This document shows positions 58,009-64,000 of a stretch of DNA of 64,000 bases, in pieces. Below the pieces are notes generated by a model. The model was not told where the DNA came from. It saw only the letters and a program-made list of their open reading frames with translations, and did not search any database. The stretch's first letter is position 1. Each line of letters starts with the position of its first letter. This DNA is from Methanoregula sp. (GTDB taxonomy: Archaea; Halobacteriota; Methanomicrobia; Methanomicrobiales; Methanospirillaceae), in the NCBI RefSeq assembly GCF_028712425.1, contig NZ_JAQTQD010000007.1:1-64000 (forward strand), written 5' to 3'. Both the position numbers and the translations under genes were made by a program.

Positions 58009-58794
58009 TCAGATCCTGATGAGCTCGTAGTTGCTGCTGCCCATCCCGATCTCCTCGCCGTACCGCACCTGCCGGTACCCGTCCGTCTGCTCATGGACGC
58101 CCGTGAACTTATCCTCGCCCGGGTGATGGTGTGCAGTGAGGAGCGAGTCCTTGTATCCCTGCTGCTGGTTCACGAGATCGAAACTCGCGGCATCGATTGC
58201 CACCGGGTCCTTCGATGCAAGGATCCCGATATCCGGCACGATCGGGGCGTCAGAAAACGGGAAACAGTCGCAGTCCGGTGTGATCCGGATCAGGAAGTTC
58301 ATGAACCCGACCTTCTTCTCTTTCCCCTTCACCGCCCCGTACGCGTACTCAACCATCCGCTCCATGAACTGCGGGATCTCGGTCTCCCAGTCAATGTCGA
58401 TCGCATGCTCCGGGCAGGCGTGCATGCATTCGAAGCAGCCGATGCAGAGCTCGCGGTCGATCACGGACTTTTTCTTCTTCACGGTTATCGCGTCTTTCGG
58501 GCAGACCTTCAAGCACGAAGCGCAGCCCGTGCACTTCTCCGGAATGGTGAATGGCCGGGCATTGTGCTGTGCCCGCTTCCCTTCCGGTGGAGCACAGCCC
58601 ATGGCCATATTCTTGATCGCTCCCCCGAACCCGGAGACGATGTGGCCCTTGAAGTGGGAGAGTACGATCATGCTGTCCGCTGCTGCAATATCTCCGGCAA
58701 TTGTGACTTCTTCGAAATGCTTCTTGCCTATGGCTACCTTCCGGACATTCTTCCCGTTCAGCCCGTCCGCAATGATGACCGGTGCGCCCGCCAC
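58009..58794 (-). CDS. DUF362-family ferredoxin protein, apparently 5'-truncated
   Basis: GAPVIIADGL...FKGHIVSGFGGAIKNMAMGCAPPEGKRAQHN...CTGCASCLKVCP...CIGCFECMHACP; family N-terminus absent. Confidence 0.8.
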   Translation of the reverse strand: MAGAPVIIADGLNGKNVRKVAIGKKHFEEVTIAGDIAAADSMIVLSHFKGHIVSGFGGAIKNMAMGCAPPEGKRAQHNARPFTIPEKCTGCASCLKVCPKDAITVKKKKSVIDRELCIGCFECMHACPEHAIDIDWETEIPQFMERMVEYAYGAVKGKEKKVGFMNFLIRITPDCDCFPFSDAPIVPDIGILASKDPVAIDAASFDLVNQQQGYKDSLLTAHHHPGEDKFTGVHEQTDGYRQVRYGEEIGMGSSNYELIRI

Positions 58795-59340
58795 GGCAAA
58801 ATCGAACCCGTGGGAGATCGCGGTGCCGATATGTTCGACAGCGTTCGACCGTGCCCCCAGGTCGGGTGAACTTTTTCCGGGTTGGAATTATCCGTTTTCC
58901 AACCTTCTTTTGTCAAAATCGAACCTCCTTGGGTTCTGATCAGTAGATCGGCGCGATCCGAAATAAAGTTATGTAAGCCGGGATGGGGAGTTTTGTAAAT
59001 CCAGCATCAAAGGGAAAATGCGCGGGGCCGGGAAATGTCCTGTGGCACGGGATAAAACAACATACTTCTATCGTGATATGAGGTGTTTCCTTATCCCAGA
59101 TCCTCTTGGGATTACTGTTGATTTGATCAAAACAAAAAATATCTTGGGCGTATTGTTAGAAAAAACAGGAAATTTTTATGGTTTTTTTTGTCTAAGAATC
59201 GTGACAATTCTAATTCATGTTGTTACGGGGGAGACCTCCGTAGTTTTCCTTATTGTTCCACACGTATTTTACGGCATCATTTTTTGAAGAACAACAGGAA
59301 AAAGCGAGAACAATAGGCTCGATAATACGAAATGAAAAAG

Positions 59341-60183
59341 TTATTTTTTACGGGTTAAATGATAGAGACGAATTTCCTTTATTCCATTTTCATTAATTTC
59401 TGTTGTATTCTTAAATTCAATCAAAAAAATACGATTTCTATCAATTGGTTTAGCACATATCGGGCGACAAATCAGATCGGGGAAGTTTTGTTTGGCGAAT
59501 TCAACCATGCTCGTGATTTGTACCCATCCCAATTTATCACGTTCTTGAGGACTTTTGGCTTCAAGAGGGAAAATGTATTTTTTACCTTCTCGATCAATCC
59601 CTACATAGATTTCATCAATTTCAATTTGGCCCTTATTTTTTATCGTGGTTCTAATATGGGATTGCAGAGGAAAGCAAGTGACTTTAGTAAAAATATCAAT
59701 TAGCCGGTTATACCTGATAGACGATAATAATCCTTGTTCATCTTCAGCTGAATAATCTTCAACAATTTCTGGAAGTGAATTTAGAATTTCAATTTCGGAT
59801 AATCCATCCTGTATTGAGATAAAGGGAGATTTGTTGATTTTTACAAACGCATATTTTCCCTTACCTCTTGGTTCGATGATCCAATTTCCAGTTTTCAAGA
59901 TTTTTTCAGGGAAATCGCCACGTGATCTATATGTGTAAATGATATCCGGAACATTTTTCGCCTTGATTCCTAGTGATTCACCAGACTCAACTAACTCTGT
60001 TTTTAAAAATGGAAATTCCGTAATTGTTTCAGAATTTGTTTTTGGATATTTTTTGAAAAAGAGATCTTCAATTACTTTATCGTATTGAGACAATTCTTCA
60101 TGAGTAATTGTATCCGCGTTACTAGTGTCTTCATCTTCGAGTTCTTCATCGGTTTTATTTCTCTTTTCTTTCATAATTAACAA
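59341..60183 (-). CDS. Putative restriction endonuclease (PD-(D/E)xK-like)
   Basis: IEIDEIYVGIDREGKKYIFPLEAKSPQERDKLGWVQITSMVEFA (D-x11-15-ExK); adjacent to MTase. Confidence 0.72.
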   Translation of the reverse strand: MLIMKEKRNKTDEELEDEDTSNADTITHEELSQYDKVIEDLFFKKYPKTNSETITEFPFLKTELVESGESLGIKAKNVPDIIYTYRSRGDFPEKILKTGNWIIEPRGKGKYAFVKINKSPFISIQDGLSEIEILNSLPEIVEDYSAEDEQGLLSSIRYNRLIDIFTKVTCFPLQSHIRTTIKNKGQIEIDEIYVGIDREGKKYIFPLEAKSPQERDKLGWVQITSMVEFAKQNFPDLICRPICAKPIDRNRIFLIEFKNTTEINENGIKEIRLYHLTRKK

Positions 60184-60187
60184 CCCC

Positions 60188-61534
60188 TCATTGATTTTCG
60201 AGAATTATTACATTTTCATCAATTGAACGCGAAGTAGCAGTTGCATATCGGGTTCTCCACAGTTCAATTTCAGATACCTTGTACCCTAATGACTCTGCAA
60301 CTTCACCTAACAAATCCGCAGTCGGGATATACGTCTGGAAGAACGACATTTGATCCCCAACAACATACGCCAGCTTTGCATCGGGAGATAAAAACGGTTT
60401 CAAGGTTTTCAGGTGAAGTAACATGCCCCCAAAATAATGACGAACAATCTTATGGTACTGTTTTTCAAATCCTGATGTTTTATTCATCCGAATCCTTTTT
60501 TCCTCAATTTCATCAGCAATTTTTTCAATACTCTCGAATTTTCTTACATATTCGCCATCAGTATCATTTACGAATATATTGCGTGAGTTGCTTCTGAGTA
60601 GGTTTTCCTTCATTGATCGCAATTCCTGCTTATTTTGGATAAATCCAAGGAGCACACTCTCTAATCGTGTACTTCGTGTGTAATCTTTCTCATTTGGATA
60701 CGGGGGTGATGTAATAACACAATCAATTTTTCCTTTTAAATCGGAATTTAAACAACTATTTACGTCTCTTGAATCTCCATGAACTATATTTGAAATATTA
60801 CGCCCATTTTTAAATAATTTTATATCTTGGATCATATGGTCCGTATTTACGCTGTAATACGACAATGCATCGATATCCACTTTTGCCTTTTTCCGATATA
60901 TCTCAGGTCCAAACCCGATATTCCCTGCACGTTTAACAATCAAATTAGCTAATGACAATGTGAAAAAGGCCCGAACCTCGTTATCTTCGATAGTGTCGAT
61001 AATCGTTTTTAAAATTTGAACTTTGTACAGGGGTTTTTCACTAATGAATCCCGCTGGAATTATTTTTTCTTGTTCTTCTGTCAATCTTGGAATTTCTTTG
61101 ATTATGATTGGATCTTGTTGAGATTCCAAAGGAGTTAAAAAAGCAATTCCATCCGAGATATGGTGATAATTGAACGAGTAATTCGCCGATTGAACAATGA
61201 ATCCAAGGGTATCAGATAATTCCGATGGATCTAGTGCAAGGTTGGTTTTCACGGTTGAGGCAAAATAAGCCATATTATTCGCTTCGATACCCCAATTAGC
61301 AATCCCACACTTCATACATTCAACGGGGGTGGTACCAGTCCCACAAAATGGATCCAAAACGAGATTACCACGGTGAATGTTGAATTTTGATAAATAATAT
61401 TTTACTAAGTGGGGTGGATATCCTAAAACAAATTGATACCATGAATGGATGGGGGTATCTACGAGTTGCAGCTTATTTTTCTTTCCATTATCGATGTCGG
61501 TGTGGATAAAGGAAGCTTCTTTCGATCCAATCAT
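60188..61534 (-). CDS. DNA methyltransferase (N6-A/N4-C type)
   Basis: LDPFCGTGTTPVECMKCG (motif I) and CVITSPPYPNEKDYTRSTRLES (motif IV SPPY). Confidence 0.88.
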   Translation of the reverse strand: MIGSKEASFIHTDIDNGKKNKLQLVDTPIHSWYQFVLGYPPHLVKYYLSKFNIHRGNLVLDPFCGTGTTPVECMKCGIANWGIEANNMAYFASTVKTNLALDPSELSDTLGFIVQSANYSFNYHHISDGIAFLTPLESQQDPIIIKEIPRLTEEQEKIIPAGFISEKPLYKVQILKTIIDTIEDNEVRAFFTLSLANLIVKRAGNIGFGPEIYRKKAKVDIDALSYYSVNTDHMIQDIKLFKNGRNISNIVHGDSRDVNSCLNSDLKGKIDCVITSPPYPNEKDYTRSTRLESVLLGFIQNKQELRSMKENLLRSNSRNIFVNDTDGEYVRKFESIEKIADEIEEKRIRMNKTSGFEKQYHKIVRHYFGGMLLHLKTLKPFLSPDAKLAYVVGDQMSFFQTYIPTADLLGEVAESLGYKVSEIELWRTRYATATSRSIDENVIILENQ

Positions 61535-61633
61535 TTCCGTAATCTCTGATGAATAATATGTGGCATAGATAATTTAATACTCTGTTAAGGTCTGTGAAAA
61601 GAACTAAACGTGGACTGATATAAGCATAATATA

Positions 61634-62299
61634 ATGAGTGTATTGATAATCACAGAGGACACTGCGACAAAACTACCTCAAGTCGATAAATGGACCACCC
61701 CAATACGAAAAGGGCAAGATATCGAAAAAAATATTGAGTTAGTTCAATTATTAAAGACACATAATTCAACAATTCCATCAGATGACCTCAAAAAAGAAAA
61801 GGCATATAAAACCATTTTAAAAAAATACATTCGACCTGCAAAGTACATGTTTTCCGCCGTGTTTTCCGAAGTCCGTGATTTTTCGGATGAATCAGCGGAA
61901 CTCACAAGAACCGACCTATATATTATATCTGGACGATATGGATTAATTAATGGAAATGATGAGATTATCCCGTATTCAAAAACTGTGAAAACAAGTATCG
62001 AATTGGCAGAGCTCGATAGAAAAACTGATTTTGTAAAAAATATTCAGACGCTCTTAAACCAATACTCAATAATTATTTTTTTACTACCGAGTGAATTCAT
62101 AAAATTTTTTTTAATTGTAGGTTTTTTTGATTCTATCCCAAAAAAACAAACAGTGATAATTGTCACCAGTACACAAAATAATACAATTTTAGGAAAATAT
62201 CCGAATTTTATAACCTTATCTCGAAAAGGATTGGCACGACTTGGTGCGATCAACCGGGAAAAAATTATTGATCTAATTAAAAAAAAGAATACCTCATAA
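61634..62299 (+). CDS. YaaA/DUF6884-like protein associated with the R-M pair
   Basis: DLYIISGRYGLINGNDEIIPYSKTV motif; divergent from MTase. Confidence 0.55.
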   Translation: MSVLIITEDTATKLPQVDKWTTPIRKGQDIEKNIELVQLLKTHNSTIPSDDLKKEKAYKTILKKYIRPAKYMFSAVFSEVRDFSDESAELTRTDLYIISGRYGLINGNDEIIPYSKTVKTSIELAELDRKTDFVKNIQTLLNQYSIIIFLLPSEFIKFFLIVGFFDSIPKKQTVIIVTSTQNNTILGKYPNFITLSRKGLARLGAINREKIIDLIKKKNTS

Positions 62300-62348: not shown

Positions 62349-62714
62349 TCAGAGATTTTGTTTGTTCAACCGTTTCTTCAACCGCTGCTTAATATTGCAG
62401 GTTGTCGCTGTACACCCATCATCCGTTGTTGTCTTATCAGGTTCACTTACTGTTCCTTCAGAAGTCTCACCCGGATCCTCGGCCACCTTTGCTCGAAGGG
62501 ATTCATCGTAGATAGGAATCCGCCGACACTGCTTAGTTTCACCGGTAATAACATCTACATCACATTCCAAAAGGGACAGCGTCTTTCTTGTACCTGATGC
62601 GGATGTTTCCGTCTGCGATACCTTCATCTGCCCTGCGGTAGATGAAATTTCCTTGGGGGTGCTCTGTTCAGATTGTACCCTGGAACGAGACTCCCCCAGA
62701 TCTTCTTTTGTCAT
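62349..62714 (-). CDS. Hypothetical protein
   Basis: MTKEDLGESRSRVQSEQSTPKEISSTAGQMKV..., low-complexity, Ser/Thr-rich. Confidence 0.4.
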   Translation of the reverse strand: MTKEDLGESRSRVQSEQSTPKEISSTAGQMKVSQTETSASGTRKTLSLLECDVDVITGETKQCRRIPIYDESLRAKVAEDPGETSEGTVSEPDKTTTDDGCTATTCNIKQRLKKRLNKQNL

Positions 62715-62814: not shown

Positions 62815-63144
62815 CTACACAATATCGCCCCCCAATTGAGAGTATTCCCCGTTGGTAGTCGGAGAGTTTCGAAAAGGAGGCTGTCCTATGGGTGTGGGTA
62901 TAGATGCCATCACGGCACCCCGCACCCTCTTGGAATAGCGTGTAGCAAGACGGTAGCGTATCGGAGTATCTCCTGATGCCCGGAGGATCATTTTGTCCCC
63001 ATACAACCGGAAGAAGATTGCACGGTCGAAGCCCGGTATCTCGCTGGCCTGTTGGAATGTGAAGTGGCGGTACCCGAACCTGTTATGGATATCCCTGAAC
63101 AGATCGCCCTTATGGCTGCCCATGCCGCGAAGGGTCATGCTCAT
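62815..63144 (-). CDS. Small winged-helix-like protein
   Basis: GDLFRDIHNRFGYRHFTFQQASEIPGFDRAIFFRLYGDKMILRASGDTPIRYRLATRYSKRV; start at 63144 or 63207. Confidence 0.45.
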   Translation of the reverse strand: MSMTLRGMGSHKGDLFRDIHNRFGYRHFTFQQASEIPGFDRAIFFRLYGDKMILRASGDTPIRYRLATRYSKRVRGAVMASIPTPIGQPPFRNSPTTNGEYSQLGGDIV

Positions 63145-63354
63145 AAGCGGTCCTCCGCTGGTTTGGTCGGGTTTTCGACAACGATTCTCTTCTCTTTCAG
63201 AACGCATTCGCCACGGCCCACGAGTATGTCAACTGTCAGCTTGTGAAGAGGGCTGGGAAGATTGTCATACTGTGCACGGGTCAAAACAAATTTGTCACAG
63301 TTGTTGATTTCTTTCATAAAAAGAAGTGGAAATCCAGCTTACATAAGCATTTTG

Positions 63355-63398
63355 GGCATTATTTGAGCGTTAAATTGAAATTGCGCTTAAATAATGTC
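63355..63398. repeat. Stem-loop, imperfect 16-bp inverted repeat
   Basis: GGCATTATTTGAGCGT (63355-63370) vs GCGCTTAAATAATGTC (63383-63398), 13/16 complementary. Confidence 0.75.
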
Positions 63399-63580
63399 TC
63401 AAAAATGGAATTCAACTGTCCATGGACGGACAATTTTTCATTTTCCGGAAAATTTTCTTGTCCATGGCAGGACAGTTTGTCAAGGCACCTGATCGGTTTT
63501 TGTCATTGCAATGACAAGTAAGTGTCATTCCATGGACATTTTTGACAACAGGACGTGATTTTGCTGTCAGTATGCTGACA
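63395..63580. promoter_or_regulatory. Phased array of TGTC-N8-GACA palindromes (five exact, one degenerate)
   Basis: 63417 TGTCCATGGACGGACA; 63459 TGTCCATGGCAGGACA; 63501 TGTCATTGCAATGACA; 63523 TGTCATTCCATGGACA; 63565 TGTCAGTATGCTGACA; degenerate TGTCTCAAAAATGGAA at 63395. Confidence 0.9.
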
Positions 63581-63723
63581 CAATTATTTTTTAATTTTAT
63601 GATAAATTTTCAAATCTTTGGATTTATCGACGATAAAAACTAAAACTCACATTTGTCAGTGCGGATCGATAGCGCAGACGCGCGGAAAAATGTTGAAAAA
63701 AGAAATGATGATATCGGGAACAG

Positions 63724-64000
63724 CTACGGTGCCGCTTCTTCCATCTGGGCTGCCTTCATGGTCAGCTCCGCGACAAGTGACTTAAACACCGGGTTCTGCT
63801 CGATCTTCTTCACTACCTGCTCCATCGTTCGTTCCTCCGTTTCAGACAGGGGCATGCCGCACGTTCCACAATACTTCACACCGGGCTCACATATTGCCTG
63901 ACAGTTCCGGCACTGGGTAGCCACCATCAGGGACTTCTCCGAGTTCTTCGGACACGAGATACCGTTCAGCCGGAGTATTTCGGCATCGACATCGGAACTG
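63724..64000 (-). CDS. Archaeal tyrosine recombinase/integrase, C-terminal part (extends beyond window)
   Basis: Reverse-strand reading continues to the edge: SSDVDAEILRLNGISCPKNSEKSLMVATQCRNCQAICEPGVKYCGTCGMPLSETEERTMEQVV; S..DVD..IL...GI plus C-terminal zinc ribbon typical of archaeal Xer-like integrases. Confidence 0.72.
   Translation of the reverse strand, partial: SSDVDAEILRLNGISCPKNSEKSLMVATQCRNCQAICEPGVKYCGTCGMPLSETEERTMEQVVKKIEQNPVFKSLVAELTMKAAQMEEAAP

Follow-up and report, generated by a model that had tools for sequence, protein, structure and literature searches.

A mobile element in the genome of a Methanoregula species carries five exact 16-bp TGTC-N8-GACA palindromes that lie in phase with the DNA helix, directly upstream of a small two-gene operon. 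The best explanation found for this array, and one to which we give about an even chance, is that it is a helically phased multi-site operator of that operon, bound by dimers of the element's own predicted winged-helix protein. The window in which the array was found (64,000 nucleotides, positions 1 to 64,000 of the contig) is part of a 120.9-kb contig in a 2.67-Mb genome; since this genome encodes methyl-coenzyme M reductase, the organism is a methanogen. The array offers a compact, testable case of what would be cooperative control through helical phasing, in an archaeal mobile element with a restriction-modification system.

A helically phased palindrome array

The five exact sites that had been predicted were all found, with start-to-start spacings of 42, 42, 22, and 42 bp as claimed. 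Site 1 (TGTCCATGGACGGACA) occupies 63417..63432, site 2 (TGTCCATGGCAGGACA) 63459..63474, site 3 (TGTCATTGCAATGACA), which is a perfect 16-bp palindrome, 63501..63516, site 4 (TGTCATTCCATGGACA) 63523..63538, and site 5 (TGTCAGTATGCTGACA), the arms of which are 6 bp long, 63565..63580. The degenerate sixth site of the original prediction, TGTCTCAAAAATGGAA, was likewise present at 63395..63410 and retains six of the eight arm bases. The sequence TGTCCATGG is common to site 1, site 2, and the reverse of site 4. Adjoining the array at 63580..63619 is a 40-bp A+T-rich block (10% GC) that could be a promoter, a terminator, or a duplex-unwinding region, and between array and operon there is a separate imperfect inverted repeat (63350..63403) with 20-nt arms that are 80% complementary and a gap of 14 nt. 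Searching Rfam for structured RNA gave no match.

The contention that the array is highly non-random was borne out by Markov simulation of the 406-bp intergenic stretch (n = 20,000), in which TGTC-N8-GACA occurred with a mean of 0.006 and a maximum of 1 copy, compared to the 5 sites seen. When the dyad search was left free (any 4-mer arm, spacer of 0 to 20), the best simulated result was 3 copies, reached in 2 of 500 simulations, versus 5 observed. Moreover, the array falls on a grid of 21 to 22 bp, with every spacing at most 1 bp off a multiple of 21, and the helical phase of the sites had a vector length of 0.957 for a period of 10.5 bp and 0.989 for one of 21 bp. In simulations, phasing of this degree had a probability of 0.001 when the ends were fixed and 0.0005 with random spacings of 16 to 60 bp, and the proposal that the sites occupy one DNA face therefore held (simulated P of ~0.001). 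Several palindromic sites at whole-turn spacing, as are looked for in a multi-site operator, are thus present in the array.

An integrative element with its own recombinase and operon

The array is contained in a complete integrative element of 6.2 kb (contig 58856-65061) that splits a DUF362 ferredoxin-type gene (PF04015) into a C-terminal part (58009..58868, minus strand) and an N-terminal part (contig about 65055-65350). The direct repeat CCCAGGT is found at both element ends, as the attL core at the left end (58856..58862) and as a right copy at contig 65055-65061, beyond the window, and joining the flanks in silico restored one open DUF362 frame (TDTNTLYLGARSNAVEHIG). In 32 genomes of the same genus, a single uninterrupted match spanned the insertion site, the weaker ones among these 32 matches being possible DUF362 paralogs. 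Together with an intact recombinase core domain, the duplicated attachment site and the relatives' empty site demonstrated the mobile element that the original prediction had suspected. As read from the sequence, an imperfect inverted repeat surrounds CCCAGGT in the joined ends and is unlike the array motif; the attachment core is flanked by this inverted repeat of its own (CCCCGAAAAGAGTACG / CGGGTGAACTTTTTCCGGG).

As cargo, the element encodes a type II restriction endonuclease (59341..60183, minus strand; PADLOC REase_II PDLC03404, E = 4.5e-65) and a type II DNA methyltransferase (60188..61534, minus strand; PADLOC MTase_II, E = 3e-32; PF01555). The divergent gene next to this pair (61634..62299, plus strand) specifies a YaaA/DUF6884/DpdC-like protein (PF03883, E = 1.4e-6, just below the cut-off; in PADLOC, DpdC with E = 1e-5 and PDC-M57A with E = 9e-7). 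With these three genes at 59341-62299, the element is a small mobile defense island.

The remainder of the element is arranged, in minus-strand order, as recombinase, array, 58-amino-acid (58-aa) open reading frame (ORF), 109-aa winged-helix ORF, and an ORF at 62349..62714 without a family match in Pfam, NCBIfam, or PADLOC. The tyrosine recombinase matched PF00589 (E = 1.1e-28) and XerA_Arch (E = 1.2e-31, below the equivalog cut-off) and has a XerA-like core followed by a C-terminal zinc-ribbon-like stretch. Its gene adjoins the array, as had been stated, but it overruns the window; only the 3' part (63724..64000, minus strand) lies within, and the gene continues to contig position about 64962, short of the element end at 65055-65061. 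Similarly, the array was said to lie upstream of the minus-strand winged-helix gene (62815..63144), and it does, but the ORF for the 58-aa protein, P0001 (63141..63317, minus strand), sits between the two. The 58-aa and winged-helix ORFs overlap by their stop and start codons (ATGA) and constitute a two-gene operon, and the array fills the gap directly upstream of it.

Distribution of the motif and of the candidate binders

A search of the 2.67-Mb genome, which had been proposed as a check, revealed 53 exact TGTC-N8-GACA sites versus 28 for the reversed control pattern, and the array was the sole cluster. Most of the single genomic sites (32 of 41, by hexamer score) fell in predicted coding sequence, and no exact copy was found elsewhere in the element. 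Since the motif is absent from the rest of the element and its single genomic copies lie mostly in genes, a dedicated element protein is likely and a regulon of the host is not; the host regulon was rejected because the other motif copies are single and mostly in coding sequence. Recognition sites of the element's own restriction-modification pair were also rejected, by reasoning only, as such sites are not expected to cluster.

The AlphaFold2 model of the 109-aa protein, the candidate binder, has the order helix-helix-helix-strand-strand, with a mean pLDDT of 69 and values of 80 to 89 in residues 11 to 70. The top Foldseek matches were MarR, PadR/LmrR, and AspA, all with E values of at least 0.009; AspA (5k5q, 4rs8) and TubR (3m8f) were among the first fold matches, with E values of about 0.03. 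From this medium-confidence model and these weak matches, the protein is predicted to be a winged helix. Pfam, including its PadR domain, gave no match for any of five members of the winged-helix family, and the modeled resemblance to PadR would be one of fold only, not of family membership. The model of the 58-aa protein is strand-helix-helix-strand, and a fold search with it returned no significant match and no known DNA-binding fold.

Related recombinases were present in 51 of the 60 genomes of the order that were searched, distant XerA-type matches included, and, of 232 genomes of the order, 72 had the 58-aa family in a profile search. The winged-helix partner was rarer: it was present in 6 of the 232, and the genome with the array has it also in a second element. 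At the loci examined by position, the 58-aa gene mostly followed a recombinase of this type on the same strand, at a distance of about 0.1 to over 2 kb. These results indicated that the 58-aa/winged-helix operon is a recurring partner of these recombinases. A more general by-product of the analysis is the 58-aa family itself, which occurs alongside zinc-ribbon XerA-like recombinases and is present in about one-third of the order's genomes. The family is without a Pfam name; its members are roughly 40 to 70 aa long and have the consensus IxRExLxHLPxxHKAxAExLIxxGxWxL (for example, at loci L123, L128, L144, and L150).

The array itself was not found at these related loci. Not even three clustered TGTC-N8-GACA sites were present in any other genome of the order, and the 39 distinct regions upstream of 58-aa homologs contained no comparable cluster of non-homopolymer dyads, the L123 upstream region having a single TGTC-N6-GACA. 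Conservation next to homologous integrases, another check that had been put forward, therefore failed, with the array and its spacing in 0 of 39 homologous loci; such lack of conserved spacing argues against a link to the integrase, but not against an element-specific operator. The array was also absent upstream of the other operons that bear a winged-helix gene (L123, L024, L128, L009, and L269), and the winged-helix proteins of four of these five operons, when aligned, were only 24 to 33% identical. In several homologous elements, a small AbrB/MazE-like or RHH-like gene is situated between the recombinase and the P0001 homolog, and for this reason the gap looks like a regulatory slot. The second element in the same genome (L128, G000:C1:14000-26000) has recombinase, 58-aa, and winged-helix homologs and no array. 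At L009, a sister element, the regulatory gap from the recombinase to the 58-aa homolog contains a direct repeat of about 40 bp (TTTTTGATTTTCGTCCATAGAACATTTTTAGAAAAGAAAAAG).

A triple-site pattern retrieved 83 stretches from viral contigs, and a pattern with one 41- to 43-bp spacing retrieved 38 stretches from genome contigs. These were rejected on inspection as instances of the same array, as many were tandem repeats or phage-type arrays with other cores, and for none of them was a relationship to this element shown. In a group of viral contigs (L030-L034, L037, L040, L052, and others), TGTC-N8-GACA arrays have a spacing of exactly 39 bp, and three contigs of a Hodarchaeaceae MAG (L174, L188, and L189) contain clustered TGTCCTATTTAGGACA-like palindromes that are irregularly spaced. 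Searches of viral contigs and phages for the winged-helix protein, of viral contigs for the recombinase, and of plasmids for the array DNA yielded no homologs.

A proposed phased operator, its alternatives, and known systems

Three functions had been offered for the array, namely, a cooperative operator, arm-type sites for the recombinase, and an iteron-like origin. The operator is the best supported of the three, as the array is palindromic, phased, and directly upstream of the operon; the cooperative part of the claim we infer. Palindromic sites are suited to a dimer, and one dimer of an element-encoded DNA-binding protein would occupy each TGTC-N8-GACA palindrome, the most likely binder being the 109-aa winged-helix protein from the adjoining operon. 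With sites two or four helical turns apart, neighboring dimers would be aligned on one face and could bind cooperatively, and the 58-aa/winged-helix operon would thereby be switched sharply, probably by autoregulation. The array is roughly 80 to 260 bp from the operon start codon, a long distance for a simple repressor site in an archaeon. In a scan for TATA-like promoters, the best sites did not rise above shuffled sequence. One conceivable promoter would precede the 58-aa start codon by about 28 bp and give a leaderless transcript; another is in the A+T-rich block (63580-63619), which would place the array in the leader. Neither position stands above background, and the switch may be one of repression or of activation. 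The array would be a well-made new example of a familiar kind of regulatory array. A bolder proposal, which we consider doubtful, is that the 58-aa/winged-helix pair represents a control module, not described before, of integrative elements in methanogens, with the phased array filling the regulatory slot and assembling a higher-order complex that controls mobility or copy number.

A role as arm-type or accessory sites of the tyrosine recombinase or of a directionality factor would account for the presence of the array in the same element, beside the recombinase gene, and for the small protein that recurrently accompanies recombinases of this family. However, about 1.5 kb, including the recombinase gene, separates the array from the attachment core; the inverted repeat at that core is a different one, and the array is missing beside homologous recombinases. 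This part of the original prediction was rejected on distance and lack of conservation, and we hold it to be very improbable. The iteron-like origin fared better in one respect, since five phased repeats do adjoin 40 bp of 10% GC, as in plasmid iteron origins, and do so within an excisable-looking element with matching ends; an initiator bound to the phased palindromes might then melt the A+T-rich block once the element is excised. Iterons are usually direct repeats, though, whereas those of the array are palindromic; no Rep gene or other recognized replication initiator, helicase, or primase was found among the element ORFs examined (Pfam, NCBIfam, and PADLOC), and homologous elements have no such array, all of which makes an origin improbable.

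The array might instead serve as a centromere-like site on which the winged-helix protein loads for partition, as does AspA of an archaeal plasmid, or TubR. Both proteins are among the first fold matches of the 109-aa protein, and AspA binds to a palindrome that precedes its own gene, spreading across 200 bp (PMC5120986). Those matches are nevertheless weak and equally good for ordinary repressors, no ParA, ParB, or TubZ partner occurs among the element ORFs, and an integrated element needs no partition; we therefore regard a centromere as quite unlikely. A different binder for an operator array has somewhat more in its favor, either a host-encoded regulator (e.g., of the Lrp type) that controls the element or the 58-aa protein instead of the winged-helix protein. 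Lrp-type regulators do use phased sites (PMC2995911), and the 58-aa family is the more conserved partner. Against a host regulator are the single motif copies, mostly in coding sequence, elsewhere in the genome, and against the 58-aa protein is its model, which matches no known DNA-binding fold; such a binder seems to us a minority possibility.

The phased operator that we favor resembles several known systems in part. The operators of archaeal Lrp-type regulators (Ss-LrpB, Ptr2, and the LysM class) are clusters of imperfect palindromes whole turns apart on one DNA face (PMC2995911). The spacings reported for them are two or three turns, whereas those of the array are two and four; the motif also differs, and no Lrp-type gene was detected in the element. 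PadR proteins are reported to bind inverted repeats of the form ATGT/ACAT with spacers of 8 to 10 nt, and in operators of this family (LmrR, PadR, and LadR), winged-helix dimers bind ATGT-N8-ACAT, a geometry close to that of TGTC-N8-GACA (PMC3506622, PMC4517056). The array, in contrast, has five phased copies of a TGTC-N8-GACA motif, and the 109-aa protein has no Pfam PadR match. The pNOB8 AspA-ParBA centromere shares with the array an archaeal mobile DNA, a winged-helix protein, and a palindrome upstream of that protein's own gene. The AspA site is, however, one 23-bp palindrome from which the protein spreads (PMC5120986), rather than a five-site array, and neither ParB nor ParA was found in the element. 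The parallels with Lrp, PadR, and AspA are analogies of mechanism and not memberships.
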